Origin: Zygnema cylindricum
Taxonomy: Eukaryota; Streptophyta; Zygnematophyceae; Zygnematales; Zygnemataceae
DNA: 64,000 nucleotides
NCBI GenBank assembly: GCA_037447655.1
Contig: JBBHKE010000480.1
Coordinates: 108,498 to 172,497 of the forward strand
Direction of reading: 5' to 3'
The translations under genes were made by a program, and so were the position numbers. Under the pieces are notes generated by a model that saw only the letters and a program-made list of their open reading frames with translations, had not been told where the DNA came from and made no database searches. Below are positions 24,152 to 49,035 of the stretch, piece after piece; the first letter of the stretch is position 1, and the number at the start of each line of letters is the position of its first letter.

Positions 24152-25350
24152 TGTCAAGCTCATGTGCTTCACGAGCACCCCTTTTAACTTACCAAGGATT
24201 CACGGGGCTTTTTCCTCTGTACAGTCATTAAAGTACGGGGAAAGGAGCAAACTCAGCAGAACCAGATTCTTCTATTTTCCTAACTGAACGGAACGCACTT
24301 TATTTCGCGCCTAACAGAGGCCGGACGACAAAGTTACTCCGTTCCAAAGATTACCATCCTGTTACATGTGACTTGTTGCCAACTGTCCCGTTGGGGGCTA
24401 CATTTTGGAACTCCACGTAACTTTTGGGATAGTCTTGTAGATTGTGCTGGTGGCTAGCAGTAAGATGTTAGTTCAGGTCCACCAGCCGGGTAGAGCATTT
24501 ATTAATGAGAGTCAAAGTTAGGCGTTTCACATGAATTTCGAACTTTGTTGCTCAGGATTCTGTCATAGAAAACCACGTGGCTTCTAATCTAGCCGGAGAT
24601 AGTCGCCTAACTTTTTGCCCTGAGTGTAATACATTATGTTTTGTCTTATGTCCGTACGATAACAATTCCTGGCCGGTGATTGGCTCCTGGCATTGCTTTG
24701 ACTTTTGTACTATCGATAGGACAAACTTTGTTTGTATAAGGCACTTGGGGCCGAGGGAGACATGTTGCTGTTTCAGTACTGTCTCTTGAGAAAAACCCTA
24801 GAAATTCCAGCAAACTTTCTTGTGGAGAACTTTTGTTTTGCTTGTGATTGTGACCCTATTGCCATCTTGGTTTGTATCCGTCCTTTGTGGAAATCGTAGT
24901 CCGGTTGGGTGGTTGGCACCATCTTTCCTGTTTTGGGCGGTTTGCGGACTGGTGTTTGTTGGAAACCAAGAAGGGTCTTGCCAGTTCCGGGTCGCGGAAA
25001 CCGAGGAGTTAAGGAGGCCTTACCTGTTCCGGGGTTTTCAGGGGGGAGATTTCGTCTCTTTTTGGTTGTCCACGTTACGTTTTGGGGGTAGGTTGAGCTC
25101 GCTTGCTATTATTCCATATTCTAACTTTATATCTCTTTTCTTTTCTAAGGGCAAAGTGATATTGTTAATTTTGAGACTGCATTTTTATATTTTTATCCTT
25201 TCATTTTTCTGAGTGGAAGCATCTGGGTTCTCTCTTTGGTAGTTTTTTTTGGGGCTGTGGTTGGGTTTCTTTCGAGGTCTATTACCATAATCTTTTGTAC
25301 CAGAATAGCGGATTTTGAGAGGATTTTTGTTAGGCTTCCAACAGATAGTC
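24152..25350 (+). mobile_element. Gypsy terminal repeat block X, 5' copy
   Basis: Starts TGTCAAGCTCATG and matches 36221-37416 over about 1.2 kb with roughly 90-95% identity by eye. A TATA-like TTTGTATAAGGC lies near 24735. It ends at ..CAGATAGTC, after which this copy runs into leader sequence while the 3' copy runs into block Y'. Open frames inside it are not supported as genes. Confidence 0.85.
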
Positions 25351-26075
25351 ACAGTACTCAAACAACAACCTGTCTATTTAGGTTAAAGAGGATATGTGCT
25401 CAGATCGGAGTGCTTTTTTTTTAAGGGATTTAGATCTTCTTCTCCAGTTTGTTATGGGGGGAAGAGAAGTCCAGGATAAGGATCTTCCGGGTGTCAAATC
25501 GAACGAGCAGGAGAGGTAAGAAGCGGTGGCCTAGGAGGAAGAGTCACAGGTGCCCGAGGGAGCACCCCCCTTTGGCTCACCTGTTCACATAGAGCGGTTT
25601 CTTAAGGGAGAAATGCCCGGGGGGTTGCGGTCAACACTCCTCCTACGCACCCAGAGGGGAGACCCTCTCCTCCACGTCCACCTGTCTTTTCCTCGAGAAT
25701 TTCAACGTTGTCCAGTCGCCAGGCTAGGGTTCGGGTGAAGGCGCTATCCCCAAAAGCGTAGGGGTTGGCCTGAAGCGGTCCCTGGTACCTTAAAATTAAA
25801 TTCGCTCTAGATCTAAAGCAGATAGAAATGTCATGGATCTAAGATCTGGATCTGTCGTAGGATGAAAATCTGGACCCCATGATCTCCATGGGTTGAAGGT
25901 TAAGAATGAGTTGGTGCGGTGGTGGCAGTCAGATGGGCAGTGTGCAGGTGGGAAGGTAGTGGAGATACTAGGATTATCAGAGGCGGCTCCTGACCTGGGG
26001 GGCAATGGAGGATCATCAGCTTCCCACCCGCAACCCGCCCCATGTCGAACCTTGCATGACTAGTAGAGGCTCACG
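25351..26075 (+). other. Gypsy leader region
   Basis: Sequence between the terminal repeat and the first gag-type frames. It has several short Pro/Arg-rich frames broken by stops, probably a decayed 5' leader or gag N-terminus. I could not identify a primer site matching a tRNA 3' end. Confidence 0.4.
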
Positions 26076-27412
26076 GTGATCCCTCAGACACGGGACGGAG
26101 AACGGACCAGCAAGTGGGGGCTACCCGAGCCAAAAAAGGGGTACAGGTTCGATCATCGGGACCGCAAGGGCACGTTCGCTCCCCGACCTAAAGCGGAACC
26201 GTTCTTCCCTTCCGATTCCACCTCTCTTAGCTCAAAGTCTCCTTCTGCTCCGACGGTTTGACCCTCAAAGGGGTTGTGGCAACCTAGACCCACCGATCCC
26301 GAGGTAATGGGTTTGGGGATTGCGGATCTCTCAGGGGTGGTGAGCAGTACAAAAAAACTGATTAACATCTTGCGATCCCAGAGTCAGGCTACGGCGGGGG
26401 CTGGACCCGTCACTATCGACTGGGAAGCTCTTGAAGAAGAGAGGAAGAGGGCCCTCGAACAGGAATTGCTCGTTATAAGGAAAGGCGAATATCCCGGGAG
26501 GATGCGGGTGGGCAGGTAGCTCCTACAGAAACTAGTCGGTTGGGGGAGCAACCAATTGCAAGCAACCTGGAGATACCAGCTCGAGTTCTTGAACAGAGCC
26601 GGTCTCGTCTTAAGGGGGGAAACAACAGGACCTAACAAACAGGGGATGGGTGCAGATTTACCGGATTACGTTGCAGCCGCCTTCACTGAGCATCCTACTG
26701 TTGTCTCAGTGGCTGGGTCTTCAACTGCGGAGGCCGTGGTATTATTACAACCTGACCAGAGACAACACATTTCCCTTGGGCTTTCCACTCCTCCTCCATC
26801 TCCACCTCAGGCATCCTCTCCTTCGCCTTCTGTTACTCCGGCCGCTGCAGACTGTGGGTCACCGGGACCACCCGTCTTACCCTACAAGTACGACGTTCCT
26901 GCCTACTCAACTCCTCACCGACGTTCTCCTGATTCCAGCGAAGGAAATCCTCCACCAGAAATCTCCAGAAGGTGTAAACGGAGACATACACCTTTCCCTC
27001 GTAGTCCTCGGTCATCTCCATTCCCTTCTCCACCAATCCCTCAAGGACCACCGGTGACTAAACCTATTCTCCACATTCCCTCGGTGGAAACAGTTTGCCG
27101 GGAGGAACGGGCCTCTCTGTGTATAGAGGAGCAGGACTTCGGGCAGCTTTTCCCAAGGATATAAGCTCTTCGTTTCCCAAGGGCCAACTCCAGAGAGATA
27201 CAGGTCATCTCACTATCCCACCAGTAACTGTAACTTCCTCAGTGGGGAAGAGTGCCATCTCTCGTCAGACTGCTCCCTCTACCGGAGCAGGAGGCGGGCC
27301 CGAGCCAGACAACGCAGATCCAGGGGTAATTTCACCGGTTCAGTTTGTTAGCCCAACCGGACCATCCTCTTCACCAACCTTGCAGAGGAGGAAAAAGAAA
27401 TGGGGGACGTAA
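26076..27412 (+). pseudogene. Gypsy gag, N-terminal Pro/Ser-rich part
   Basis: Several frames (26076-26261, 26274-26519, 26556-27164, 27095-27412) together encode low-complexity Pro/Ser/Arg-rich protein in shifting frames. The position between leader and capsid fits a gag N-terminus. At least three frameshifts or stops separate the pieces, so no intact product is made. Confidence 0.55.
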
Positions 27413-27487
27413 GGATCTTTACAAGAGATAGCTCGGGAATCGCTTTCTCTGATTTCGAATTGCTGTGGAAGTCGTTCTGGGGGCGCT

Positions 27488-28090
27488 TTGGTAAACTACA
27501 AGGTGCGACAACCTCTTCTGATGGCTCCCAGTATCCAAATATCAGACCCTATCCTTGATGAGGCAGTCTTGCAGGCGGAAGCAGACTTCGCCGCCGCTGC
27601 AGCTGCTCCTGTCACCGCCCTCTTCACAGAGTACATGAAATTGCAGGCACAAGGACCAGCCTATGTCGCTCAACTTCAGGCCATCCACGAGGCATTGGCA
27701 GCCACTCGGATGGTTGCATACCCAACCCCTTGTACCACTCTTTTGAATGCCTGGAAACTCCTTTACACTGAGAGGAATGAATATGCTATCAAGGAATTTA
27801 CGGAATTCCATTGCCAAAAGAGTGAAACACCACAGACTCTTTTTAACAGATTGTCCAGGCTCTGTCAAAAGACCAAACTCTCAACCATTGATCTTCTGGC
27901 CATGACAACCAAGTATTTCATCGCCGTCCGAAATTCGTTCGGACCGACAGGGCACGCCGCCCTCGATAATTTGACTGCGGGACAGGCCATCCACAACGTC
28001 AATCCAACTGCCAAGGAAATCTCTCAGGCTGCAATGAAGCTTTATGATCACTTTGTCCACCGAGAGGCTCAGGAAAAAACGGTAACCTGA
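27488..28090 (+). pseudogene. Gypsy gag capsid region
   Basis: A 200-codon frame with the retrotransposon capsid pattern: helical, Ala/Leu-rich, and a central segment of the type KEFTEFHCQKSETPQTLFNR, reminiscent of the Retrotrans_gag motif. It ends at a stop at 28090 before the nucleocapsid frame. Capsid assembles the virus-like particle. Confidence 0.7.
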
Positions 28091-28126
28091 AAAACCCGAG
28101 GGAACTTTGCAGGATTTGCCGGAGAT

Positions 28127-28539
28127 ATGCCTCCCAAAAATGAAGAGTCAGCCGAGCTCTTGGCCTTGCGGAAGATCAAGGGGAATCGGGTGGTGGATAG
28201 CGGATCCGAACCTGCCATGGGGGCCGATGACCGTGTCTTCCTCTATAACTGTTTAAACTGTCAACAAACAGGTCATAGATGGAAGCGATGCCCCCGGAAG
28301 CTCAAACCGGAATTAGCTCTTAAGCCGAAGGAATGGGAGAAGGAGAGAGATGAAAGGACAAAGAGGCAGCAAGAAAGGAAGCAAGGAGGAGGGTCAGACG
28401 ATAAAACCCCAGTGAACAAAGACCTTTACCGGCCGACGCCACGATCTAAGACTGCAAAGATGTCGCAAGCCCAGTTGCGACAAATAAAACTTCCAAAATT
28501 TGATGACGCGCAAATCTCCAATAAATTGAGGGGCAAATA
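28127..28539 (+). pseudogene. Gypsy nucleocapsid with zinc knuckle
   Basis: The frame contains CLNCQQTGHRWKRC (CX2CX4HX4C), the RNA-binding knuckle of gag, followed by a Lys/Arg/Glu-rich segment. It stays open to the assembly gap at 28540. The expected protease and first methyltransferase motifs would lie just downstream but are missing here. Confidence 0.8.
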
Positions 28540-28549
28540 NNNNNNNNNN
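28540..28549. other. Assembly gap (10 N)
   Basis: Ten undetermined bases inside the Gypsy coding region. The sequences on either side are unrelated (nucleocapsid, then non-coding DNA and a Copia LTR), so the true gap may be large or the join wrong. Confidence 1.
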
Positions 28550-28739
28550 AGATATGCGTTTTCATATCAACGGCCACATGAAATACATGCTTGTAACATG
28601 CTGTACCGGGTTTACAGCTGTGTACAGTATAGGCCTAAGCCACGGTGCTAGAGACCTCTAAGGTGCTATGTTACATTACAGCGGTGCGCAGTAGGTTACA
28701 CCGCTACCGGTGTTTTGCGGCTTTAGAAGAAGGCGCTAG

Positions 28740-29490
28740 AGCCGCGATTAAAGCCGGCAGGCTAATCTTAGATTAAGTTAGCATCGGCTCATTTAACTGT
28801 AACTGTTTACGGTATACATAGATCCGGTAATGTATAAGTACGGAATTTTGTACATGCACGAAATCAATACCGCGCATTTATTTCGTAAGTGAAACAAATA
28901 CCCCGCATGTATTTATTACGGCTACGATTGAATTAGATTCTAATCGGACGGCCGAAATTAGCGCCGAGATCGCGGAAGAAGATTTCGGCGTTTTGTGGCC
29001 ATCGCCACATTGGATGACGCGTGGCGACATTACATTGTATCGTGGAATCTCCAGAGATCGTGGCACCGAATCCGGATATGACATGTGTCGACATTTGGGC
29101 CATGTCGTACAATGTTCGTACATAAAGTACACCGGCAACTATACTTTTGCGTATAGAACTGTATTCTGATTGGTTCTGTACATCAGTAGATAGAGTCTGT
29201 GAGAGAGATAGGACTTCGAAAAATTAGGAGATAGGACCCTCTCTCCCAGAGAGCTTCTATACAAAAGGTCAACTTTGACCCTCCATAACTTACTGCTCAG
29301 GGGAGCAAATTCAAAGATTCTTTTTGCTATCGACTCACGAGAGTCTTTCTTTCACAACGGTGCAGGTGGTCAGAGTTTTTGTCTGCCTGGGTGGTAGTTG
29401 TTTTTGCTGAAACACAAAGGGGTGAGGATTATCCTAGAGGCTTCTTGGAAGCTGTCCACTCTGAGGACTTATGGAGGTTTCAGAGTTTCA
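28740..29490 (+). mobile_element. Copia family D LTR, copy C (5'-truncated)
   Basis: Matches LTR B (21094-22095) from about its tRNA-like module onward, roughly 85% by eye, including CTCTCTCCCAGAGAGCTTCTATACAA-type blocks. It ends ..CAGAGTTTCA, where B has CAGAGTTGCA. No primer site follows; the next bases are a CAT repeat. It could be a 3' or solo LTR. Confidence 0.75.
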
Positions 29491-29587
29491 TCATCATCAG
29501 CATCATCATCGTCATCATCATTGTCATCATCATCATCGTCAACAACATCATCATGATCATCATCTTTATTATCATCATCATCACCTT
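29489..29587. repeat. (CAT)n microsatellite
   Basis: About 100 bases of CAT/CATCGT/CATTGT triplets starting exactly at the end of LTR copy C. Confidence 0.9.
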
Positions 29588-29847
29588 TGAAGATGCGTTC
29601 AAACGCCTACAATTTTCAGTGAGGACATGCCTCTTCTACATTAGCGTACGGTCGGGTACACAATTACAAATACAAGATGCATAGGAACGAATATAATACG
29701 AAATTTTTTGTTTGGAAGAGCTTTTTTTTGCTTTGCCCTTTTTCTAAAAGAGAAAAGTATTGTAGTCGCCTGCGTCTTTGGTGACAACGAGAATTGACCG
29801 TCGATGTTTTTTGTGTAAGATCTTGAGCCGTTGAGGGTTTTGAGTTA

Positions 29848-30626
29848 GGGTATGTCCCCATGTACTTGTAACTTAGCGAACTTACTTTGTATTTGAGCGC
29901 GGATCCGTCGGACCTGGTTTTCAAGTGTCATTATGCCTCTAAGGAGGAAATCGCAACTTATGCTTGTGACGATTGTATACTTCCACAATACCTGTGACAG
30001 TTGTCAACGTCTACAATCTGTGGTCCCACGTTACTTTATGGAACTGCTTTGTGACGTCGCATGTCTTACCGTGACGTTGTAGACGTACCGCATTCCAGCC
30101 TGGCAGTTTCACGGTTGAAGAAGATGCACTTTGCCCTTCGCGTCGCCTGTCCGCTCGAGGTGAAATGGCATCAGAATTTGAAGACCCCTGCAAATAAAAA
30201 ATCCATACTGGACTAAAACGGACAAAATCAACCAAACTGTGTACTTCTTTTCGTCTTATTGTAACGCAAACGGACAGAACATAGCGAACTATGTACTTTT
30301 CTTTCTCCTTGGAAATCGTATAAATTTTTTCGAAATCTAAGGCAAGTGCGAAAAAATGTTCCTATTTGTCAATCGAAAAAACCAAATTTTAAATCACATC
30401 GCGCATGTGTTTTAAACAAAGGTTTGAAGATGACGTTTTTTGTCGTAGAAGTGGGTGGAAAAGCACAAGACGACAAGTTTTCGAACATCCTAAGTTCAAG
30501 GATGTCGCAAATTGTTCTCTACAAATTTGCTATTCTTTCGTACGGTTGCAACTTAGGCAGTACGGCGCTAAGTTTCACGGAAAACGACAGAAAAAAACCC
30601 TTACTTATGCACATGGGGACACACCC
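29848..30626 (-). mobile_element. PIF/Harbinger-like non-autonomous element, copy 2 (inverted)
   Basis: Ends GGGTATGTCCCCATGT and ACATGGGGACACACCC with TTA duplications at 29845-29847 and 30627-30629. 779 bp, homologous in opposite orientation to 826-1594, e.g. shared CTGTCGTTTTCC..AACTTAGCGCCGTA. No transposase. Confidence 0.8.
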
Positions 30627-31089
30627 TTAGCCGCGGGATCCCTCGCTCGCCTGGCCAGGTCTGGTGTTGTACCATTCGAAGAAGAATCGACACGCGTGAA
30701 ATTTGTTCCGTATGTACGATCGCGTCGAAGACTGCAAAATGTTCTCTATTTTTTGTCGGTGGTCACATATTTATGACGAAGGTGGTTGTAAGGTATTTAT
30801 TTCATTATTTGTCAATTCCTCAGGATCGGATAGATATGAGATATGACCACGGTCAGAGGTCGCAAAAGTCAAAAAAAATCATACCCGAAACCGACCGTTT
30901 TTTTTTTTCAAAATCTGAGTAACCGACGCCCGACCGAGTTTTGTCACGCTCCAAAATTGTTAACCGTTAACCGACCGTGTCGTGATATCAATACAGCTAT
31001 AGTAACGTATAGTATCGCACTATTAATTTTGGCGCGTGCGATCTCGTCACATCACGCCACGTTGTCGTGTTCTCAATATTTGTAAACTA

Positions 31090-31740
31090 CACAGCGAATC
31101 GTAATTAGAGTAAATAACGCTAATTCGGTCGCCTTAAATTTCGACTCTATCACATTAAATAGAGTAAATGATTCGAATATTTTCATTATATAATTTAAGG
31201 TAAAGTTTAATTAGCGTAAAAAATCCTATATAAGCTCGTTTTAAATAACGTGGAGTATGGACAACGTCTGACTTTGCAAAATTGTAATTTTATAAGTAAA
31301 AAGGTACAAATAATAATTTAATAGAATCGTGCTCGCATGTGAAATTGCACTAAACAAAAAAAATAAATCGCATCGAGAAAAACCCGTTTGCATAGCTCCG
31401 TCCGTCGACAACATTCTTGCCTGTGTGAACATTTACATGAATTTACATGTGAAAATTTTGTAGTTAAACGACAAGAGTATGAGTTGAGACAAAAAGTATA
31501 TATCTATGAGACAAATAGTACTAACATCATAATGAAGTCAAAATATACGGGCTGACGGTTTTCGTATGTCTAAAAAATTTAGTGTTTATAATTACAGCAT
31601 AGAAATTTATTGCCGACATAAGCTAATATAGAGTACTTAAATAAAGTAGAATGAATTTCCTCTGTGAAAAGGTTCTACCACAATAATTAGTGTTTACAAC
31701 TCTAATTGTTTTTTCTTTGTTTTTTTGCTCGTACTTTTAC
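31090..31740 (-). mobile_element. TA-flanked MITE, about 615 bp subfamily, inverted copy
   Basis: The left edge (CACAGCGAATCGTAATTAGAG after TA) and the interior (GATAGAGTCGAAAT read in reverse, GTTGTCGACGGACG) match the complete copies at 47703-48317 and 55434-56049. The right terminus is eroded and merges into a Copia LTR fragment. Confidence 0.7.
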
Positions 31741-32128
31741 ACTACCATATCTATGTATCCCGTTAACTGTTATAGTTAAATGATTTATCCAACGGTTACA
31801 TGTATAAATAATTATCGTACTACATATTATGTAGCAGTACTTCTAGACTTAACGGCTAAGGCTACCGGCTATCAACTATCTGTCGGTCGGCAGGTACCAG
31901 GATCAAATTCTGCCGCCGGCACATACCTTTTAGTAATTAATCCCTAGACTAATATAAATTTCCCGTAAACCTGAGGATAGCCTAGGTAGCCATGGCTCTT
32001 GCTTCCTCTCAAATTTCTCAGTGACTGCGACAAGTTTGAGAGTTGGAGAGAGAAGTTAGAGGTAGATTGCCTCGGCTTCTTTGTTTCTATTCAGACCTAG
32101 AAAATACTTAAAACCATTAATTTCTACA
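31741..32128 (-). mobile_element. Copia family D LTR fragment, inverted (5' part)
   Basis: Read on the minus strand it begins at 32128 with TGTAGAAATTAATGG, the LTR start of this family, then AGTATTTTCTAGG, the SINE/tRNA-like region (B box GGATCAAATTC near 31899-31910) and the ATTTAACT..ATACATAGATAT block. It sits directly against Gypsy coding sequence at 32129, so it marks an insertion into the Gypsy element. Confidence 0.75.
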
Positions 32129-32633
32129 TCTGTCAGTCCTGAACAAGCTCTTACAGAACCACAAAACAGATCCCCAGATTTCCCTGCAACAAATCTTAAG
32201 GACAGGGCGGATGGCTACTCCCGTAACTAAGGCAGATCGTCCTCTGTTCTTCCAGTGCAACCAACTGGGAGCACCACGGAGAGCACTGCCATCATTGGTT
32301 TCCTTCCCGAATAGCCATGCGTATCGAAAGGGAGCGGCAGGAATGATATTTGACTGCAAAAGTGGAGTTTGGACAACGCCAACGGTGGAAGAACGAGAAC
32401 AAGCCATGGGATTCCAACCAGCCAGTACGGCGGCACCAGGTATATTAGACCTCCAGAGGTGCAGCCTCCTCGGACAAAGCATGGATCTAAATGCAATAAC
32501 ATGGGTGATAAAACATTCTCTGGCCTTCTCTAGCCTACAGTCTCCGCAATTGAGGCTTCGTTACCTTCAAGCTCCAAAGTTGTTAGCGGTGCAGGCCCAC
32601 TTGCAGCTTGAGGGGGGGAGGGAAGCAAGATAG
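32129..32633 (+). pseudogene. Gypsy-encoded C5-cytosine methyltransferase-like domain (C-terminal part)
   Basis: One open frame continues from the edge of the inverted LTR to a stop at 32633. It contains TLV/SLVSFPNSHAYRKG-type target-recognition sequence. A motif IX-like stretch (WTTPTVEEREQAMGFQ, compare R-x-LT-x-x-E-x-x-x-L-x-GFP) and a motif X-like stretch (LLGQSMDLNAITWVIKH, compare LGNS-x-x-V-x-V) follow. C5 DNA methyltransferases end this way. The catalytic Pro-Cys and ENV motifs should lie upstream and are absent here, because the inserted LTR and the gap replace them. Its position upstream of RT in a Ty3/Gypsy polyprotein agrees with methyltransferase-bearing Gypsy elements reported from the charophyte Klebsormidium. 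This copy cannot be active. Confidence 0.65.
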
Positions 32634-32693
32634 CAATTTTTATCATCAAAATTTTCCAGTCCCAGCATTTTACCGAAATTAAGGGATTCCTCA

Positions 32694-34739
32694 GTGGGGG
32701 GGAGCGGAGGCTCGGAAAGGGATAACTTAGCGGAAGTTGTTAGCAGCAGCATTCTAACGGGAGGAGATGAGGTAGACCCGCAGGTAGAGATGGAATTCGA
32801 TATCTCCCGCTGGGGTAGACCCCCGGAGGCCTGGGTAGCGGTGGAACCCGGAAAGATGGATTGGACCTTAGGGGAGCTGTTAGACCCTCAGCAAAAGTCC
32901 TAGCTCTCCGACCTGTTGGAGAAGAACAAACAAGTGTTCTCCTGGTCAGATATTGACGTAGGCATCTACAAAGGAACCCCTTTCCGAATCGATTTAATAG
33001 ACGAGACGTCTACTGTTTGGCAAAAACAGTACCCTCTCAGTTTTAAGGAAAAGGAGTTCATCACGGCAAAGGTACAAACTCTGGTAGAAACAGGATTGGT
33101 TCAAGAAAGTACCGGACTCCATGGATTTGCGTCTCCAACTGTTCTCCCACCCAAGAAGGACTCATCTGGGAAAACGGTAGACTTTCGGATGTGTGGAGAT
33201 TACCGGATGCTTAATACGGCAACTGTACCTGACCGATACCCAATGCCTACCCCGGAAGAGATTTTTGACTCGTTGGCCGGGGCCACTATTTACTCCACAC
33301 TAGACATGAAGAATGGGTTTCACCAGATAGCGATGGAGCCAAAGCACTGGGAAAGGACAACTTTTTGGGCAGGGTTTAGGTTGTATGAATGGCTCTACAT
33401 GCCATTCGGGCTGAAGAATGCGCCAGCCAAATTCCAACGTGCCATGGACGAGGCACTCCGGGGAATTGACTGTGCACGGTGCTATATAGACGATGTGATT
33501 ATCTTCTCAAAGACCTTCGAGGAACACCTGGAGCACATACAGATTGTACTCCGAGCTCTCCAAGCAGCGGGCTTGAAATGTCACCCGGGTAAGGGAATTT
33601 TTGGGGTGCAAAAAATTATTTACATGGGACACGAAGTTACACCTGGGACAGTGGGTCCCCATATGGTCAAAGTTACGGCCCTTGATGCCCTACCCCCTCC
33701 TCAAGATGTCTCTGCAATGTGCACATTTTTAGGCCTGGCTAACTATTATCGGAGATTCATCCCTGAATTTAGCAGCCACGCTCAGCCTCTGAACCAGTTG
33801 CTGCGGAAAGACCAGGAGTGGCAGTGGACGAAGGAGCAACAGATTGCCTTCCAGTTCCTCAAGTATTCCCTGAAGCAACGCCCAGTGCTCCGAATGCCTG
33901 ACCACCAAAGACCCTTCCTCCTTTACACTGATTGGAGCCGGTTTGAATTGGGAGCTGTTTTAGCCCAACTGGATGATGCTGGTGCCGAATATGTGGTAGC
34001 TTACGCCAGTAGGAGTAATAACCGAGCGGAGGGGAATTACAGCAGCTATCACGGGGAATTACTGGCGGCGGTATGGGCCATCCAACATTTCAGACCATAC
34101 CTATACGGAGTCCATTTCACTCTGATCACGGATCACCAGCCTCTTAAGTGGATTATGGAAAACAGCAAGCTCACTGGCAAGCTCGCCAGGTGGGTGTTAA
34201 TACTGCAGGAATATGACTTTGACATAATCCACCGGGCCGGAGAGATTCATGGGAATGCCGACGGACTTAGCAGAAATCCTGACCCTTCCACTAGAGATTC
34301 CACCGGGGCCCGCCATGATGAGGATCCTGAAATCAGTTTGGGACTCATTCGAGCTTCATCTGCCTTTATTTGGCTTCCTCAATCTGGGGGGGAAATGTCT
34401 ACTTTCTCTGCAGACGTGGAGGGGCAAGCGCTTATAGGAGCCGGACGGAAAGATATTTGGAACGATCCCAATGCACTCCAATCTGTCCAACAAGGTTTCC
34501 CTCTTCCGCATTTGATAGGAGTGCAGTTATCTCGGGTGCAAACACGAATGGCGGCATACGAGTGGGAAAGGGGCATCTTAATCCGGAAGTGGGCATATGG
34601 GACGAGAAAAGTGGTTCCTCCCCCGGCCGACAGAGAGACTCTTATTTTTAACCTTCACCAGGAGTGTGGCCATTTTGGGCAGAAACGGACCACCTCCTTG
34701 GTCGCACGATCGTACTGGTGGCACGGGTTGCGGACCTAA
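32694..34739 (+). pseudogene. Ty3/Gypsy reverse transcriptase and RNase H
   Basis: After a linker frame (32694-32903, stop at 32901-32903), a 607-codon frame (32916-34739) encodes a full RT: SWSDIDVG, MCGDYRMLN, YSTLDMKNGFHQI, PFGLKNAPAKFQR and the catalytic box YIDD (33483-33494). The connection and RNase H follow, with LLYTDWSRFELGAVLAQ (usual TDAS is TDWS), a catalytic Glu in YHGELLA and ITDHQPLKW. It ends with the start of the integrase zinc finger (HQECGHFGQ). RT and RNase H make the DNA copy of the element RNA. This is the best-preserved part of the element, but flanking stops and shifts disable the polyprotein. Confidence 0.95.
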
Positions 34740-35929
34740 GTCAACCGGATTATGCAGACGTGTTCCTCCTGTGACCGAGTCAAAGCAACTTTCGACAAAA
34801 AGGGAGGTGCTCAGCTTCATTCCCTTCCCATCAGGGGGATGTTTTATCGGTGGTCTCTGGATCTGCTGGGTCCTCTCCCCACAAGCAGACGAGGGAACCG
34901 CTTTGTGTTGGTAATGATAGAGCATTTTTCCAAGTGGATCGAATTGGTGGTCTTACCCCGGAAGGAGTCCAAGGCTATTGCGGACGCATTCTTGCAGAGA
35001 GTGCTTTCCCAATTTGGGGCCCTAGCCAAGTCCTGACCGACCAGGGCTCCGAATTTGCGGGAGAATTCTCCAACTTGTTGGAATTGTGTCTCATCGACCA
35101 CTGGTTGACCAGCCGAGACCACCAACAAGCCGACGGTTTGGTCGAAAGGTGCGTGTAGACAGTGAAGCGGTCACTACGTAAATATGCCGTGGAAGAGGAT
35201 CTAGGAGAGTAGGATAGAAAGGTGCCTTTGATCGCCATGGGGTACCGATTCAGCCGGCAAGCATCCCTCCACTCCTACAGTCCATATTTCATTTTGTTCG
35301 GACGGCATCCCATCCTCCCCGGTGTTTCCTCGGCCCAAGTAGTGGTCCTTACGGAGATGGACAGCAAAGGAACGGTCGAAAAATTGATTGCAGACAGAGC
35401 CAAGGTATTTCACCGGGAAATGCCTTTGGCCATGGGGAATTTACAAGCAGCTCAGCACCGAGATCAACTTTGGTATTCCCAACGCCGGGGCGGGAATTTT
35501 GTCCCGCGGCAACGGCGATTTCTACCCGTGGATTTCGTGTATCGGATGCAACAGAAAAAGGACACTCTGGACATTTCAGCGGGGAGGGTGATTTTGAAGG
35601 TAGTGGAAGTCTCCAATAAGGGGGTCTTGACACTTGAAGGGAAGGATGGGCGGAGGATCAAAGAAAATCAGATCAATGTGGCTCCTTGTCACCTCCGGGG
35701 ATTGGAAGACGAACCTACTTTCCACCTTACCTATTTTGCTGATCCCCCTTTGTGCTCCTCTGAATGCCTCTCATCTCCCTCCCAGAATTCTGTACTGGTT
35801 TGTGATCGATGCGACCAGTGTTGGCATCAATCTTGTCTCCCCTCCTCTTGGGACCCTCGTCCTAAACCCATCTGCTCTCTGGTTGTGCAGGAACTGCGAA
35901 TTGGGGGGGTAATTATTCAACAGTCTTAG
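34740..35929 (+). pseudogene. Ty3/Gypsy integrase, with a C-terminal PHD-like extension
   Basis: Completes the HHCC finger (CSSCDRVK), then the DDE core: WSLDLLGPL, LTDQGSEF (after a frameshift near 35030) and QQADGLVER. Stops occur at 34737, 35156 and 35212. From 35222 a 235-codon frame continues through the integrase C-terminal beta-barrel (GRVILKVVEVSNKGVLTLEG) and ends in a Cys/His-rich tail. No chromodomain is seen where many plant Gypsy elements carry one. Confidence 0.9.
35745..35917 (+). pseudogene. Degenerate PHD-type zinc finger at the Gypsy C-terminus
   Basis: Frame 1 gives CSSEC, then LVCDRCDQCWHQSCL; the adjacent frame gives LWLCRNCELGG before a stop. Together they show the Cys4-His-Cys3 order with the diagnostic Trp just before the last Cys pair. 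One frameshift lies between the sixth and seventh ligand. PHD fingers usually read histone H3 tails, so the domain could have guided integration. Function is inferred from the family. Confidence 0.55.
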
Positions 35930-35951
35930 TCAAAGTTGACTAAGAGGGGGG

Positions 35952-36218
35952 GAAATCAAGAACCCGGCTCCACCTCTAAGGATTCCCTACCTTCCCCCGG
36001 CCAGGAGGGGAAAGGAGAGGGGGGGAGGGGATATCTTTCTCCCTCCCCAAGCACTCATCCCCACCTTTGCATGCATACTCACAAGTACAAGATGGGCAGC
36101 ATTAAACACAAGCATGGTTGTGGGGAGCATTCGCATTCTGGGGAAGGGTGTTTGCAGGACTCCAATGCCAATTACCCGGGCAGTGGGCCCTCCTCTGATG
36201 TTTCCGGCACGCTCGACA
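35952..36218 (+). repeat. Gypsy terminal block Y, internal copy
   Basis: Directly follows a purine tract (AAGAGGGGGGG, about 35942-35952) that could be the polypurine primer. It ends GCTCGACA, then GC, then block X (TGTCAAG). It is repeated at 37417-37707. Confidence 0.8.
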
Positions 36219-36220
36219 GC

Positions 36221-37416
36221 TGTCAAGCTCATGTGCTTCACAAGCACCCCTTTTATCTTACCAAGGATTCCCGGGCCCTTTTTCCTCTGTACGGTCCTTA
36301 AAGTACGGGGAAAGGAGCGCACTCAGCCGAACCAGATTCTTCTATTTTCCTAACTGAACGGAACGCACTTTATTTCGCGCCTAACGGAGGCCGGACAACA
36401 AAGTTACTCCGTTCCAAAGATTACCATCCTGTTACATGTGACCAGTTGCCAAATGTCCCATTGGGGGCTACATTGTTGAACGCCACGTAACTTTTGGGAT
36501 AGTCTGGTAGATTTTGCCGTTGGCTATCAGTAGGACGATAGTTCAGGCCCACCAGCCGAATAGAGCATTTATTATTGTGAGTCAAAGTTAGGCGTTTCAC
36601 GTCCTTTTAGAACTTTGTTGCTCAAGATTGTGTCATAGAAAAACACGTGGCTTCTAATCTAGCTGGAGATAGTCGCCTAAATTTTTGCCCTGAGTGTAGT
36701 ACAACCTGTTTTGTCTTATGTCCGTACGATAACAATTCTTGGTCGGTGATTGGCTCCTGGTATTGCTTTGACTTTGGTACTATCGGTAGGACAAACTTTG
36801 CTTGTATAAGGCACTTGGGGCCGAGGGAGACAGGTTGCTGTTTCAGTACTGTCTCCTGAGAAAAACCCTAGAAATTCCAGCAAACTTTCTTGTGGAGAAC
36901 TTTTGTTTTGCTTCTGCTTGTGACCCTATTGCCATCTTTGTTTGCATCCGTCCTTTGTGGAAATCATAGTCTGGTTCGGTGGTTGGCACCGTCTTTCCTG
37001 TTTTGGGCGGTTTGGGGACAAGTGTTGGTTGGAAACCAAGAAGGGTCTTGCCGGTTCCGGGTCGCGGAAACCGAGGAGTTAAGGAGGCCTTACCTGTTCC
37101 GGGGTTTTCAGGGGGAGATTTCGTCTCTTTTTGGTTGTCCACGTTACGTTTTGGGGGTAGGTTGAGCTCGCTTGTTATTATTCCACATTCTAACTTTATA
37201 TCTCTATTTTCTAAGGGCAAGGTGATATTGTTAATTCTGAGACAGCATTTTTATATTTCTATCCTTTCATTTTTTTTTGAGTGGAAGCATCTGGGTTCTC
37301 TCTTTGGTAGTCCTTTTTGGGCTCTGGTTGGGTTTCTTCCGGGGTAGATTACCAGAATCTTTTGTACCAGAATAGTGGATTTTAAGAGGATTTTGTTAGG
37401 CTTCCAACAGATAGTC
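36221..37416 (+). mobile_element. Gypsy terminal block X, 3' copy
   Basis: Homologous to 24152-25350 along its whole length, with the same start and the same end (CAGATAGTC). The junction with the preceding block reads GACAGCTGTC, a perfect palindrome, as if two element ends were joined. Confidence 0.85.
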
Positions 37417-37707
37417 GAAATCAAGGACCCGACTCCACCTCTAAGGATTCCCACCCTTTCCCCCCCCCCCCCCTCCCCCCTCGTGACAGGAGGGGAAAGG
37501 AGAGGCGCGGGGGAGGGGATATCTTTCGCCCTCCCCAAGCACTCATCCCCACCTTTGCATGCATGCTCACAGGAACAAGGCGGGCAGCATTGAGCACAAG
37601 CATGGTTGTGGGGAGCATTCGCATTTTGGGGAAAGGTGTTTGCAGGACTCTTATGCCAATTACCCGGGGCAGTGGGCCCTCCTCTAATGTTTCCGGCACG
37701 CTCGACA
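37417..37707 (+). repeat. Gypsy terminal block Y', terminal copy
   Basis: Repeats block Y (35952-36218), including GATATCTTTC, CCCCACCTTTGCATGCAT and the end GCTCGACA. It contains a C homopolymer near 37460-37480. Blocks X plus Y' together have TGTC..GACA ends, as expected for one complete LTR of about 1.49 kb. Confidence 0.75.
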
Positions 37708-37974
37708 CGGTTAGAGCTAACGGCTACGCCATGCTCTGCCGGTTGGGGGTTCGAGTCTTGCCGGACTCAACCTTTTTTTGAGAGTGACTTAGGTCACTCT
37801 TTAGTCCTGCACAAGTGGAGCTGAGGCAGCCATGGCTCCACTACTCTCTCTCTCTCTCTCCCTTTCAATGACAACAACAAGAATATGGGATGGAGAGAGA
37901 GAGGTAGAGACAGACTATTTGCGCTCTCTTCACTTTTTATCTAATTTAGACCAAGAAAATACTTATTTTCAACA
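37708..37974 (-). mobile_element. Inverted Copia LTR/SINE-like fragment with tRNA-like module
   Basis: Read on the plus strand it opens with GGTTAGAGC (end of an A box) and GGGGGTTCGAGTC (perfect B box), then GGCAGCCATGGCTCC, a CT repeat and CAAGAAAATACTTATTTTCAACA. That is the inverted first 300 bp of the family D LTR. It starts immediately after the Gypsy end. Confidence 0.65.
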
Positions 37975-39361: not shown

Positions 39362-40411
39362 TGTTGAAATTAATAGATTTTTAGAGTATTTTCTAGGTTT
39401 AAATTTGTTAGGATAAAAGAAAAAAAAAGGCGGGCAGCCTGCCTCCACCTCCCCTCTCTAGCCCCCATACTTGTTGTAGTCACTGAAAGATAGAGAGGGT
39501 GGTTCATCCATGGCTGCCTTAGTTCAACAGGCAGTTATTTTTAGTAGGTTACTAAAAATATCCCTGACGGACACGGGATTTGATCCCGGTACCTGCGGAT
39601 CGTCAAGTTGGCCGATAGCGGTCAGCTTTATCCTATTAGACTAGGACCAATGCTAAATGCTATAGTATGTGATAGATATATATATATATATATATATATA
39701 TTTAGGGAGGAACAAATCCATTTAACTAAAATTATATACGGCATGCATAGATATAGTTTTATGAAAGTATGAAGTACGATTCTATTTCAAAACGGATATC
39801 ACGCATTTTGTTTCGATAGTGAAACAAATATCGCACAAGTATTTATAAAGGCTAAGATTATGTCTCGCTAAAGATCCAACGGCGCACATCATCGCCGAAA
39901 TCTCAAAATTGTCACTTTGGCGTTTTATGACGTGGCATGACCTGGAGCCACGTGGAGAGATGACATTCGGTCATGGGAATTCCGAGGAATGTACGGACGA
40001 GTGAAATGTAGACACGCGTCCACTTAATAGCCTTGTCGTACATAGGTCGTACAAAAGGTACACCGGCAGTAGTACTTTTTGGTAGTGTACAGTAATCTGA
40101 TTGGTCCGTACTTCAATAGATAGAAGTTATTAGAGGGAATCAAGACTTAGAAAATTTTGGTAGGGAGTCACCTCTCCCTTTGAGAGTTTGTACAAATTGG
40201 TATTTTTACTGCCTCATAACTTATCGGCTGGTTGGCCATTTTCAGTGATTTTTTTTGCTACGAACTCAGAGGAGTCCAAGCTGCATAGGGGTGCAGTCAA
40301 ACTGTCATTTTGCCTTCCTGGACAGCAGTGGTTGTGGCTTGAAGTGGGTTAGTTAAATACTATCTAGAAGTTTCCTGTATTCTGTGGTCCAATGGAGGAC
40401 ACATAATTGCA
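39362..40411 (+). mobile_element. 5' LTR of Copia element D
   Basis: TGTTGAAATTAATAG to ACATAATTGCA, 1050 bp, preceded by the target duplication AGAGA (39357-39361). Contains an antisense tRNA-like module (39565-39650), a (TA)n run near 39680 that makes it longer than its partner, and then the promoter/R-U5 half. It differs from the 3' LTR at roughly 5% of positions by eye, so the insertion is not recent. Confidence 0.95.
39565..39650 (-). repeat. tRNA-like Pol III promoter module in the 5' LTR
   Basis: On the minus strand: A-box-like TAGTCTAATAGG and B-box-like GGGATCAAATCCC at tRNA spacing. Transcription from it would run toward the LTR 5' end. Present in both LTRs. Confidence 0.65.
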
Positions 40412-40426
40412 GGCTATGGGCCCACC
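40412..40426 (+). promoter_or_regulatory. Half-tRNA-Met primer-binding site of Copia D
   Basis: GGCTATGGGCCCACC abuts the LTR and differs by one base from the exact match in copy B. The position right after ..TTGCA fixes the LTR boundary. Confidence 0.8.
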
Positions 40427-43400
40427 CTTTTGGGTGCCCACCTTCAATGGATCTGGGTTCATCTATTAGGAAGCTAATGATGATGGGAGCTTTGTACGAA
40501 AAACGATACTGGGGTATCGTCAGTGGACAAGTGAAACGTCCACCTTCGGGAACACCAGGATTTGGAGGAGTAAGGTGTCCTGCAACAACGGCTAACTCAG
40601 CGGAGGAGGCTGATGATGGGGACAGCAGTGTGTCCAAAAAGGGAAAAGGGAAGGAGACACCCCTTACTCCTATTGCCACAGTACAGGGAGCGGAGACCGT
40701 GAAGACCACGGAGAACGATACTCAAATGTGGGAGGATGTAAACATGGCTGCCAAAAACTTTATTCTCAGGCACCTCACTCAAGCTTTGGCCACTCCTCAT
40801 CTTCACATTTACAAGGCCGAGGAGTTGTGGGTGAGTTTGGTAGAGATTTATTGAGCTGGAACTATTCAGGAGCTCCAGTTGGCTGAGCAAAAGCTAATGA
40901 GTTACAATTACAAAGGAGGAAAGATGTTAGATTACTGTAATGATCTTTCTTGTTTGTATATAGAGATGGAAAGTGTCGCGTGGACAGAAACAATGAAAAT
41001 GAAAGTTTACACTCTTATCATGAAGTTACCAGATGAGTTCGAGAACATAGTGTATCGAGTACCGGAAATGCCTAATTGTTCATGGAAATGGAACACAGTG
41101 GTCAGGATGATACTTGTGCAGGAAAACACAATGGAGATTAGGAGAGGAGGAAAGAGCATTCAAGCTCTAGCAGCAGGAGGGGACCGATGGGGGAAGGACA
41201 CGAAGAAACTGTACAAAGGGGAAAGAGATCATTCTGGAGGACCGAGGCCCCCAAAGGGTCTTTGTCATTTTTGCAAAAAGCCGGGACACTTCATCGCAGA
41301 TTGTGTTAAGCTGTCGGAGCTGAGGCTCGAAGAGAACCGTGGAGGGGGTTCTTCCGGAGGGAAGAAAAAGGCACTTGTGGTTACAATAGTGACAAGAGAA
41401 ACCGAGGATGAGTCCTCTGAGGAGGATATGGAGCTTCTTCTTGACTAGAGTCTGGAGGAGAAGGAGATCCCTCAGAGACAAAAGTGTGCCCTTGAATCAA
41501 ATCGGGAAGCTCCACAGGATGGATGGATTATCGACTCAGGTGCATCCATGCATATGTGTCATGATAAAGAACTCTTCACTAAGCTAAGGAAAATCCCTAC
41601 TGTAGATATAGAGTATGGGGATGGGATAATATTTACTACAGATCTAGTGGGATCAGTAGATCTGAAAATCTTAGTGGAGGGTAAGACTTCTATACTTACA
41701 TTCTCAGATGTACTCTACATTCTTCAGCTGAGTAAAAATCTTGTCTTTACGTCTGTGTTAGATGACAAAGAGTTTGATACCTTCACTCGAAAGGGAGTCT
41801 TTACAATTAAGTATGGGGATGAAGTTTACTTCACGGCAGATTAGGGTAGCCAAGGAATGTTTAGGCTTAACTTGAGTAATGAAAAGAATAATGCTTACTA
41901 TGTTGGTGTTCCTAAGTTGATGATTTGGCATAAGCGGTTGGGGCATGTGCATTTTGATAGGTTGAGGGAAATGAAAAAGCTTGGGGTAGTAGAAGCCATT
42001 CAGTTTGGGGATAATGAAATGATGGATGATTGTAGTGGTTATGCTCAAGGTAAGGCTCACAGACTTCTCTTTCCCAAAGCCGCCACATATAGAGGTGAGA
42101 AAGTGTTAGATTTGGTCCACAGAGATATTTGGGGACCTGCAAAAGTACCTTCGGTGGGAGGAAAAAGGTTTTTGATGACAATAACGGATGAGTGGTCTAG
42201 ATAATCTAGAGAATACTTTCTAAAAACAAAGTCTGAAGCATCAACTTACTTCAAAGAATATAAAGCCTGGAGTGAGAAGTTGTGTGAAACCCCATTAAGA
42301 GGATAAGGAGTGATAATGGGGGGGAATATACCTCTAACCGGTTTGAGGAATATCTAAGAGATGAGGGAGTGAAGCACCAGAAAACTGTACCATATAACCT
42401 GGAACAAAATGAGGTAGCTGAGAGGTTAAATCTAACCCGAGGAGATAGTGCATGCAGTATGTTAGCAGACAAGAAAATAGGAAAGAGATTTTGGGCAGAA
42501 GCAATAAACTGTGCCAACTACATTAAGAATAGAGTCCTTACCTCAGCTGTAAAGGGAGTGACACCTTATGAGAGATGGGTTGGAAGGAAACCAGATATCT
42601 CACACCTGAAATTATTCGGTAGCCAAGTTTACAGTCTTCACACAGATAGGAAGAAGTGGAAACTAGATGCTACGGGAAAACATGGATACTTTGTGGGATA
42701 TGATGAGGATGTTAAGGGATATAGAGTCTATGACTTAGCAAAGAAAGATATAATTCTGGTCAAACACTTAGTTGTCATGATGAAAGGAAGTCATTTGACC
42801 CCTTGAAATATAGAAAGAAGATAAGAATCACATTTGAGTCCAACAGTGAGGAGAACTCGGTCGTTCCCGAAAGGGACATGAGTGAAACCGTGATTGCAGA
42901 TTCAGGGGAGATCCGAGATACACGAGACTCACCGGAAACCTCACATACTCCTATGGATTTCGAGGACATAGAAGAAGTGGGACCACAACCGGCTTCCATG
43001 GACAAGGAGCCGATGAGAGAGTGAGAAGAAACCCAAGACTTCCATCCATTCCAGCTTCGGAGTTTGAGGGAGGAAGGAGGAGCAGCAAAAGGATACAAGA
43101 AAAAACAGGTCGTTCATAAGTTAACTAAGCTATCTCACCCAGATGAGCCTCAGTCTTACTCGGAGGCAGCGAATAGTCCAGAGAAAAAAAGATGGATTAG
43201 AGCCATAAATGATGAGATGGCCTCTATCATGGAAGCAAATACTTGGGAAATAGCGCATTGTCCTCCAGACAGAAAAACCTATTGGGTGTAAATGGGTATT
43301 TAAACTAAAATTAAACCCAAATAATACCATTGAGAGATATAAGGCTCGATTGGTAACAAAGTGGTTCACTCAAAAGGAGAGGATTGACTATGAGGAGACC

Positions 43401-44685
43401 TTTGGTCTAGTTGTTCGGTTCCCCTCAGTAAGGATTCTCCTCAGTCTGGCAGCAGCAGAAGACATGGAAACCCACCAGATGGACATTAAGACATTTTTCT
43501 TAATGGTGAGTTAGAGGAAGTAATTTTCATGAGGCAACCCGAGGGATTCGTGGAAGAAGGAGAAGAGAGCAAAGTTTGCAGGCTCATAAAATCCTTATAT
43601 GGAGTGAAGCATGCTCCCCGACAGTGGAATAAGAAACTAGATGAGTTTCTCACCAATCTGGGATATATTTGTATCACCTCTGACCATTCTATCTATATGT
43701 TTGAAGATGAGAATGGTGTCATATTTATTGCAATTTATGTGGATGATCTGCTTTTGTTGAGTAAGTCTTTAGGGAAGATCAATAAGCTAAAGAAAGAACT
43801 TAGGGGCAGATTTGATATGAAGGATTTAGGGGAGGCAAAATATATTTTGGGGATCAAATGGAGAGAGATAGAGGGAAGAAGATTATTAGACTTACTCAAA
43901 AAGAAACAATAGGAAATATGCTTGAGAAATTCCAGATGGAAAATGCTAACAGTTGTACCACTCCCATGGACTTGAAAAAAGTAAGTGATGGGAGTGTAGA
44001 AGGAGGAGTGATGATCTTAGACAATCAGATGAGTCCAGAGGAGAGAGAGTTCATGAAGTCTATCCCTTATAGACAAGTCGTAGGAAGCTTAATCTATTTT
44101 ATGAATTGTACCAGGCCGGACATAGCGGCGGCAGTTGGTGTACTCAGTAGGAGTCTTAATGATCCTAGGAAGAGGGATTGGGAGGCAGCCAAGAGAGTCA
44201 TGAGATATCTGGTTGGAACCAGAGAATTATGGTTGCATTTGAGAGGGGAGCACACTGATATCACCACTTGGAGTGATGCCAGTTATGGGGATGCACCTAT
44301 GAGAAGATGCACTTCTGGATATGTTTTGTATGTGGGGGAAGGTGCTTGCTGTTGGAGCAGTAAGCAACAAAAGGTGGTTTCTCAGTCTAGTATGGAGGTT
44401 GAGTATATGGCGTCTTGTTCTACTGTAAAAGAACTAATGTGGGTGAAGTCATTGTTTCAAGAACAGGGATGTATGAAGAAGGGAGTGCATGAAATATTTT
44501 GCGATAATCAAGCTGTAATCGCAATTGCAGCCAATCCAAAACACCATTTCAAAGCAAAACATATGGACATAAGATTAAGTTTCGTAAGGGAAAAAGTTGA
44601 AAATAAAATTTTAAATCTTGTGTATAGATCTGATGAAGAAATGGTGGCTGACATGATAACCAAACTTGTGCCCTCTCATAAATAA
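40427..44685 (+). pseudogene. Copia element D gag-pol (gag, protease, integrase, RT, RNase H), inactivated
   Basis: Order typical of Ty1/Copia. Gag has NMAAKNFILRHLTQ and the zinc knuckle CHFCKKPGHFIADC at 41273-41314. Protease has WIIDSGASMHMC near 41525. Integrase has WHKRLGHVHFDRL, DIWGP, SDNGGEYTSNRF and the GKR/KFW-type block, then GYDEDVKGYRVYD. RT has KWVFKLKLNPN, QMDIKTFF, LYGVKHAPRQWNKKL and the catalytic YVDDLLL near 43736. RNase H has TTWSDASYGD, SSMEVEYMA and KHMDIRLSFVREKV. Stops at about 40852, 41446, 41842, 42202 and 43022, and frameshifts near 42300, 42790, 43290 and 43905, prevent translation. The polyprotein ends at 44685, 64 bp before the 3' LTR. Confidence 0.95.
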
Positions 44686-44737
44686 AAATATTGTCAGGAA
44701 AAGTGCGGGTTGAAAGAAAAATTAAAATTAGACTAGA

Positions 44738-44749
44738 AAATAAAGGGAG
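44738..44749 (+). promoter_or_regulatory. Polypurine tract of Copia D
   Basis: A purine-rich run ending AAAGGGAG directly before the 3' LTR TG (44750). It would prime plus-strand DNA synthesis. Confidence 0.7.
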
Positions 44750-45773
44750 TGTTGAAATTAATAGATTTCTAGAGTATTTTCTAGGTTTAAATTTGTTAGG
44801 ATAAAAGAAAACGACGGGCAGCATGCCTCCACTTCCTCTCTCTAGCCCCCATACTTGTTGTATTCACTGAAGGATAGAGAGGGTGGTCGATCCATAGCTG
44901 CCTTAGTTCAACAGGCAGTTATTTTTAGTAGGTTACTAAAAAATATCCTTGACGAAAACACGGGATTTGATCCCGTTACCTGCGGTTCGTCAAGTTGGCC
45001 AATAGCGGTCAGCTTTATCCTATTAGACTAGGACCAATGCTAAATGCTATAGTATGTGATAGATATATATATATTTAGGGAGGAACAAATCCATTTAACT
45101 AAAAGTGTATACGGCATGCATAGATACAGTTTTATGAAAGTACGAAGTACGATTCTATTTCAAAACGGATATCACGCATTTTGGTTCGATAGTGAAACAA
45201 ATATCCCGCAAGTATATATAACGACTAAGATTTTGTCTCGCTGAAAATCCAACGACGCACATCATCGCTGAAATACCGGAATTGTCACTTTGGCGTTTTG
45301 TGACGTGGCATGGCCTGGAGCCACGTGGAGAGATGACATTTGGTCATGGGAATTTCGAGGAATGTACGGACGAGTGAAATGCAAACACGCGTCCACTTAA
45401 TAGCCTTGTCGTACATAGGCCGTACAAAAGGTACACCGGCAGTAGTACTTTTTGGTACGGTACAGTAATATTATTGGCCCGTACTTCAGTAGATAGAAGT
45501 TATTAGAGGGAATCAGGACTTAGAAAATTTTGGTAGGTAGTCATCTCTCCCTTTGAGAGTTTGTACAAATTGGCATTTTTAGTGTCTCATAACTTATCGG
45601 CTGGTTGGCCATTTTCAGTGATTCTTTTTGCTACCGCTCAGGGGAGTCCAAGCTGCATAGGGGTGCAGTCAAACTGTCATTTGGCCTTTCTGGACAGCAA
45701 TGGTTGTGGGGTTAGTTAAATACTATCTAGAGGCTTCTTGTATTCTGTGGTCCAATTGAGACACAGAATTGCA
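44750..45773 (+). mobile_element. 3' LTR of Copia element D
   Basis: 1024 bp, TGTTGAAATTAATAG to CAGAATTGCA, followed by the target duplication AGAGA (45774-45778), which matches 39357-39361. The antisense tRNA-like module is at about 44955-45040. The (TA)n run is much shorter than in the 5' LTR. Confidence 0.95.
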
Positions 45774-48432: not shown

Positions 48433-49035
48433 TGTTGGTTTTTGACGATCTTTGGCAACACATCGATTCTGACAGAAGTACCGATTTGCATATGTGCAAC
48501 GTGACGTGACGTGACGAATCAAAATGTACGGAATTGAACCGAACGACAACATGTTTGATTAAATGCTTTGTGTACGGAATTGTATACAGACGTGCGGCGA
48601 TTCCCGGTGGACAATCAATATGTAAATAGATTTAGATTGAACCATACTTTAATGACTTATTTAGTGTAGGCTTTTTCTTTGCATAGAAAAGACAGAACAG
48701 AGCAGACAGAAAGATAACTCTTCATAAATCAATTTCACAGAGCAAGTTAGACATACAGAGACTAAGACAAAGGAGAATAGATTTGCCTTTATTATAAAGT
48801 CTTTGTAACAAATTGTCCTAAAATGACCATAATTGAAAACTACGGCTATTCCTGAGATCCTATCTTGTCTATTCTGTCTATTTTCTAAATATCTCTCCCT
48901 ACTCTACATCATTCCTATCTCTATTTTTTCTGTGACTCTCTAAGCCCCTTTTGCGTGTTTGATCCGCGGCCGGTCCATTTCGTTTGTGGTTACGGGAATC
49001 CTTCCTGTTAGCTCGGATGACCAAGCAGGTGAGAG
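48433..49035 (+). mobile_element. Element F 5' LTR, copy 1
   Basis: Direct repeat of 52791-53386 beginning TGTTGGTTTTTGACG. The end is placed near 49035 by alignment with the 3' repeats, which end in ACA. Includes AGACAGAACAGAGCAGACAG and TCCATTTCGTTTGTGGTTAC blocks. No tRNA 3'-end primer site is obvious after it. Confidence 0.7.

Follow-up and report, generated by a model that had tools for sequence, protein, structure and literature searches.

A decayed Gypsy-type retrotransposon in Zygnema retains the C-terminal part of a DNMT3-type cytosine methyltransferase

What is encoded by the short open frame that lies directly upstream of the reverse transcriptase (RT) of a Gypsy-type element in Zygnema cylindricum, and to what kind of element does it belong? 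The locus lies in a 64,000-nucleotide stretch of contig JBBHKE010000480.1, which was analysed as a whole and is called the window below. A preliminary description had assigned motifs IX and X of C5 cytosine methyltransferases (MTs) to this frame and placed it in a Gypsy element. Our analysis suggests, with a probability of roughly 0.7, that the window holds a dead Ty3-type Gypsy copy from a family that carries a DNMT3-type MT between protease and RT, and a PHD finger past the integrase. The features are collected in Table 1.

Table 1 Features of the element and its surroundings, in window coordinates.
Feature	Position	Strand	Basis
Decayed Gypsy-type element, A1 - internal - B1 - A2 - B2, TGTC start, GACA end	24152-37707	+	repeat alignments; ends read
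Repeat A1	24152-25349	+	92.3% identical to 36221-37415
Gag-like region	27413-28540	+	position and zinc knuckle
In-frame TGA within gag-like region	28088-28090	+	frame reading
Zinc knuckle CX2CX4HX4C	28250-28291	+	sequence
Assembly gap, 10 N	28540-28549		read directly
Dispersed repeats, foreign to the element	28550-32120 (end approximate)		65-84% matches elsewhere in window
Open frame holding the MT tail	32121-32633	+	stop-to-stop reading
MT C-terminal part, DNMT3-type: target-recognition region and motifs IX, X	32133-32537	+	profile 139.8 bits; BLASTP; model against DNMT3 structures
Motif IX, EREQAMGF	32391-32414	+	in frame 32121-32633
Motif X, RCSLLGQSMDLNAITW	32457-32504	+	in frame 32121-32633
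In-frame TAG then CAATTT, MT/RT boundary, proposed leaky stop	32631-32633	+	L020 has TAG CAATCA there
Second in-frame TAG, taken as decay	32901-32903	+	L020 ORF2 without stop at matching place
RT-RNase H-integrase-start frame	32904-34739	+	Pfam above cut-offs
RVT_1	33150-33638	+	Pfam above cut-off
RNase H	33900-34214	+	Pfam above cut-off
Integrase H2C2	34617-34733	+	Pfam above cut-off
Remaining integrase, broken frames	34740-35840	+	tblastn of L020 ORF2, 44-49%
PHD-like finger past integrase	35762-35863	+	PF00628 19.0 bits, below cut-off 24
Purine run AAGAGGGGGGG, candidate polypurine tract, directly before B1	35942-35952	+	sequence
Repeat B1	35952-36218	+	84.9% identical to 37417-37707
Palindrome GACAGCTGTC, B1/A2 junction	36215-36224		once in window, expected 0.01
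Repeat A2	36221-37415	+	alignment to A1
Repeat B2	37417-37707	+	alignment to B1

Searches with the fragment by itself were silent. Neither PF00145, the search proposed in the preliminary description, nor any other Pfam family matched it at E ≤ 10, and NCBIfam gave no match. A protein-database search among proteins of similar length, with full polyproteins excluded by the length limits, returned nothing, a single-sequence search of the PDB gave one unrelated chain (E 0.63), and viral contigs gave no useful match. This silence is misleading, since only the last part of the domain is left in the fragment: its alignment starts directly past motif VIII, and in the alignment with relatives motifs I, IV, VI and VIII are absent from the assembled sequence. 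It took relatives with a larger share of the MT domain to make the match visible.

These relatives were collected in two rounds. With the RT-RNase H-integrase frame as query, 4275 proteins were found at E ≤ 0.001, and among the best 120 of them PF00145 and RVT_1 occur together, according to precomputed domains, in three: P0041 (Marchantia Mp_2g26090), P0055 and P0056. When the fragment was compared with these 120 by BLASTP, P0056 matched with 38% identity over 141 residues (E 3.4e-30), and P0044, P0045, P0055, P0100 and P0041 all had E values no higher than 8e-11. Residues 1-310 of P0056, used as a second query, brought in 17 further proteins among 18 matches, and in the resulting set of 137 the fragment matched P0130 (42%, E 1.9e-30) as well as P0056, P0126, P0127, P0129, P0131 and more. 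When eight proteins were scanned, PF00145 exceeded its curated cut-off in P0041, P0045, P0055 and P0056, stayed below it in P0117 and was not found in P0044, P0100 or P0001; it was also above the cut-off in P0126, P0129, P0130, P0132 and the first open reading frame (ORF1) of contig L020, introduced below. The relatives also give the order of domains: protease-MT in P0126 (protease 24.8 bits, just above the cut-off of 24.3), MT-RT-RNase H-integrase in P0129, and zinc knuckle-protease-like-MT in P0132.

A profile built from 15 relatives, with the window excluded, gave the fragment 139.8 bits, with residues 5-139 of the frame homologous to the MT family. The runner-up among the 1270 six-frame fragments of the window (stop-to-stop, at least 30 residues) had 2.5 bits and, of 10,000 shuffled versions of the fragment, the highest-scoring reached 10.6 bits; many of the 15 relatives had been chosen as matches to the fragment, and the shuffles control the score, not that choice. 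The table of this profile search reported 7398 sequences.

Which type of MT is it? A profile of 13 relatives, searched against the PDB, had DNMT3A at the top (E 2e-18), followed by DNMT3C and DNMT3B, with plant DRM-type chains (1e-8 to 3e-7) and HhaI (6e-7) far weaker. The alignment to DNMT3A consisted of three collinear pieces, of which the first was very weak (4.5 bits) and the last, at 16.3 bits, was the motif IX-X region kept in the window. When a structure model of the fragment (mean pLDDT 78.9) was searched with Foldseek, 139 entries matched at E ≤ 10 but not one reached E ≤ 0.001; DNMT3 entries made up all of the best 50, with a best E of 0.032 and TM scores of 0.31-0.39 by query length. 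For the model of P0127 (mean pLDDT 76.1) the DNMT3 matches reached E 2e-17, and the best of them had TM scores of about 0.8 when normalised by target length. The product of frame 32121-32633 is thus part of a DNMT3-type C5 MT, comprising its target-recognition region with motifs IX and X. The C5-MT reading of the preliminary description therefore stands and is narrowed to the DNMT3 type, its two motif assignments were correct, and its placing of the domain directly upstream of a Gypsy RT is supported by sequence and structure at the level of the family. The PF00145 search of the fragment itself failed, where relatives pass the cut-off.

The closest view of a more complete element came from a scan of genome contigs with the MT profile, which gave 37 loci. 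Among them was L020, a 9285-base contig in which 73% identity extends over residues 4-430 of a query 455 residues long. The contig is binned as a Synechococcales (cyanobacterial) metagenome-assembled genome (MAG), but we consider it eukaryotic contamination, since the proteins it encodes belong to the MT-bearing Gypsy family. The two contig ends share an overlap of 127 bases, as in a circular or collapsed-repeat assembly. The order along L020 is gag-like region, protease-like match, MT, UAG, RT, RNase H, integrase and PHD finger. ORF1 is open at the left contig end and includes the protease-like match (20.5 bits against a cut-off of 24.3) and PF00145 (45.9 bits), and ORF2 holds RT, RNase H, the rve integrase core and PHD (39.9 bits). 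L020 is 42% identical to the window in the MT and 48% in the RT, and otherwise looks intact. P0127, with the same kind of MT, is named from an Obscuribacterales MAG; together with L020 it illustrates eukaryotic contamination of bacterial MAGs. The other 36 of the 37 loci (24-49% identity), and 19 loci in viral contigs found with the MT profile (24-42%), were set aside as ordinary bacterial or phage MTs on the basis of identity and titles. Viral contigs searched with the RT ORF gave nothing.

The internal order of the window element, RT then RNase H then integrase, is that required of Ty3/Gypsy. No tyrosine recombinase was found by Pfam in the six element frames, nor in ORF1 or ORF2 of L020; integrase domains were present instead. 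The gag-like region had no gag match in Pfam and only a weak one to L020 ORF1 (27% over 45 residues, E 0.003). The PHD assignment gains from relatives, in which PF00628 exceeds its cut-off (25.5 bits in P0001, in addition to L020). In place of two whole long terminal repeats (LTRs) with a target-site duplication, the element has split repeats in the plan A - internal - B-A-B. Rfam gave nothing at gathering scores in the whole window.

The window copy is dead. Protease and MT motifs I-VIII are absent from it as assembled, where the gap is followed by repeats of lower G+C (28550 to about 32120). Within these, 28790-29345 matches at 66-67% the repeats that flank a Copia-type element at about 39.7-45.6 kb. 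The suggestion that an inserted LTR, together with an assembly gap, accounts for the missing catalytic half is thus reasonable, given the N run and repeats that include a piece resembling a Copia LTR. Reading 28550-32120 as an intron was set aside, as its pieces recur in the window as repeats. With protease and motifs I-VIII absent and the integrase broken, this copy is incapable of the cycle proposed below for its family.

Several neighbouring features were seen in passing. The Copia-type element (39686-45648) has flanking repeats that are 92% alike, and a related Copia fragment ends at 24151, abutting the left end of the Gypsy element. Directly past the right end, 37708-37770 is a tRNA-like stretch that by eye has the look of a SINE head. 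Farther along, 48944-51149 and 56676-58881 hold the same three long frames, 7732 bases apart and with identical translations, within repeats 98-100% identical at this spacing that begin at about 46.8 kb and 54.5 kb; these are either a recent duplication or an assembly artefact.

How widespread is the combination of MT and Gypsy RT? The RT tree had 108 rows, comprising the window and 107 of 123 proteins with an RT match, and was built by a quick method with SH-aLRT support only. Thirteen proteins have both MT and RT; ten of them were included, P0117, P0122 and P0131 having been dropped by the RT-overlap filter. All ten MT-bearing rows fall into one 70-row group (support 99), and none among the other 38 rows; the group includes rows from Klebsormidium, Closterium, Calypogeia and Marchantia, with three frog rows outside. 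The window RT groups with two PHD-bearing rows (support 100) and more loosely falls in an 11-row group with three Klebsormidium rows (SH-aLRT 91, not starred). In the listed proteins of these Klebsormidium rows no MT was detected. The MT rows carry the source names Marchantia, Calypogeia, Sphagnum magellanicum, several Closterium and one bacterial MAG (P0127). In the MT tree (26 rows, those of 100 residues or fewer left out) the window fragment lies outside any starred group, and given this weak placement we claim no agreement between the MT and RT trees. An older, wider clade of MT-bearing Gypsy elements across algae and bryophytes is moderately supported by these sequence comparisons. Because support is weak at many forks and the sampled rows were gathered around the window's own RT (the best 120 of the 4275 matches and the 17 proteins from the MT search), one ancient capture is favoured rather than demonstrated, and transfer between hosts is possible.

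Elements of this kind have precedents. KnitGypsy-Dnmt3 of Klebsormidium nitens combines Gypsy domains with DIRS-like repeats, has its DNMT in the Pol ORF and was interpreted as having gained it independently within the K. nitens lineage (de Mendoza 2018, PMC5890265); the DIRS plan is given there as A - internal - B-A-B. The window element resembles it in its Gypsy RT, upstream Dnmt3-type domain and DIRS-like repeats, and as KnitGypsy-Dnmt3 has the A and B-A-B repeat plan, the kind is already known. The link to Klebsormidium drawn in the preliminary description is thus real, and is matched by the loose grouping in the RT tree. The two may differ in the PHD-like finger, as the main text on KnitGypsy-Dnmt3 does not use the word PHD, and in the in-frame UAG that parts MT from RT in the window and L020, as the DNMT of KnitGypsy-Dnmt3 is placed in Pol. 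SymbioDIRS-Dnmt3 of Symbiodinium (PMC5890265) shares the Dnmt3 domain and the A - coding - B-A-B repeats, but has a tyrosine recombinase and no DDE integrase, whereas the window has an integrase zinc-binding domain and integrase-like sequence. Some DNMT3 members inside retrotransposons, called LTR Copia and DIRS, are reported from streptophytes and dinoflagellates (PMC12344493), and excerpts of PMC6453930 and PMC11540031 hold no statement of such kind for or against.

Bryophytes are land plants, though not tracheophytes. Among them, Marchantia P0041 likewise joins PF00145 to a following RVT_1 and RNase H in one protein; unlike the window, it is without motifs IX-X in the alignment and so looks like a damaged copy too. 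In the open-licence literature we found no description of bryophyte copies, of UAG-CAA or of a PHD finger in an MT-bearing Gypsy family. Apparently new are the single 70-row RT group with all ten MT rows, the UAG-CAA and the shared GACAGCTGTC junction.

The boundary between MT and RT bears on how the MT would be made. In the window the two lie in one frame; in L020, ORF1 and ORF2 also share a frame and are separated by a single TAG followed by CAATCA. CARYYA has been named as important for readthrough (excerpt of PMC3441728); CAATCA fits it, and CAATTT of the window fits in five of six letters. As the MT closes L020 ORF1 before the in-frame UAG, it may belong to the Gag precursor and not to Pol, and P0126 and P0127 end near the end of L020 ORF1. 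From these two DNA sequences, UAG-CAA is probably a leaky stop that places the MT in Gag. The stop at 32631 could alternatively be ordinary decay like that at 32901, with the MT a part of Pol as in Klebsormidium, which we regard as a substantial possibility, though short of an even chance. The window copy is decayed and has that second in-frame stop, MT runs into RT without a stop in P0055, P0056 and P0129 (so that the UAG is not general), and the DNMT of KnitGypsy-Dnmt3 is placed in the Pol ORF (PMC5890265). Yet L020, otherwise intact, has the same codon and the same next codon at the same boundary, and CAAYY stands next to only 3 of the 840 plus-strand TAGs of the window, although on both strands together TAGCAAYY shows no enrichment across the window (3 observed, 7.4 expected).

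Other readings concern the domain and the repeats. That the MT likeness is due to chance, or that the segment is a protease or gag part, were outcomes that the preliminary description had named as fatal to it. PF00145, NCBIfam and the PDB did lack direct fragment matches, but the profile score of 139.8 bits against 10.6 for the best shuffle refutes this, the BLASTP, PDB profile and Foldseek results speak against it, and relatives have PF00145 beside a Gypsy RT; we give it almost no credence. A DNMT3-derived domain that does not methylate DNA, and instead acts on RNA or, within the particle, binds DNA or plays a structural role, is a weightier proposition, if an unlikely one. Motif IV was recognised by its pattern in 20 of the 28 MT rows scanned, which were those of 27 proteins and L020. 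It reads PCQ, as is usual for C5 MTs, in 9, ECQ in 10 (P0045, P0056, P0121-P0125, P0129, P0131 and P0136) and ESQ in 1. In motif VI, EH replaces EN in several Closterium rows and P0055. On sequence grounds, ECQ or ESQ may mean altered or no methylation activity. Against a general loss, the catalytic Cys of motif IV is kept in 19 of the 20 rows and EN in many, the K. nitens copies are reported to have kept their key residues and to evolve under purifying selection, and de novo CG methylation has been reported for retrotransposon DNMTs (PMC5890265). Finally, the A - internal - B-A-B arrangement could stem from nested insertions or misassembly, which we hold to be still less probable. The ends have no exact target-site duplication of 4-12 bases (4 of 6 letters at best), the flanks are unlike each other (Copia-like on the left, not on the right) and there is an internal assembly gap. 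On the other side, the inner B/A junction reads GACA-GC-TGTC, whose halves match exactly the TGTC start and GACA end of the element, and GACAGCTGTC also occurs once in L020, at 7051-7060 (expected 0.02); DIRS-like repeats are moreover reported for KnitGypsy-Dnmt3 (PMC5890265). A shared B/A junction site is thus suggested by the DNA of the window and L020.

If UAG-CAA is leaky, ribosomes would mostly make a Gag-protease-MT product, and occasional readthrough of the UAG would give a longer one that adds RT, RNase H, integrase and PHD. The MT would then be packed into the particle at Gag-like amounts, where it could methylate newly made cDNA, and the PHD finger might help to steer insertion to marked chromatin. 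Taken together, we tentatively picture a single ancient capture of a DNMT3 that founded a lasting Gypsy clade of charophytes and bryophytes. Many of its members would make a Gag-MT by a leaky UAG, with many MT copies per particle marking their own cDNA, and would insert, with a DDE integrase and a PHD reader and on a DIRS-like plan, from a TGTC...GACA-ended form cut at GACA-GC-TGTC. That this picture is right in all its parts is rather doubtful.

Hosts silence such elements by methylation, so the long retention of a de novo MT by the elements themselves is puzzling. The rows from Marchantia, Calypogeia and Sphagnum put the MT domain in bryophytes, and the RT tree fits one older clade. If the MT is made with Gag, the particle would be the place to look for self-methylation.
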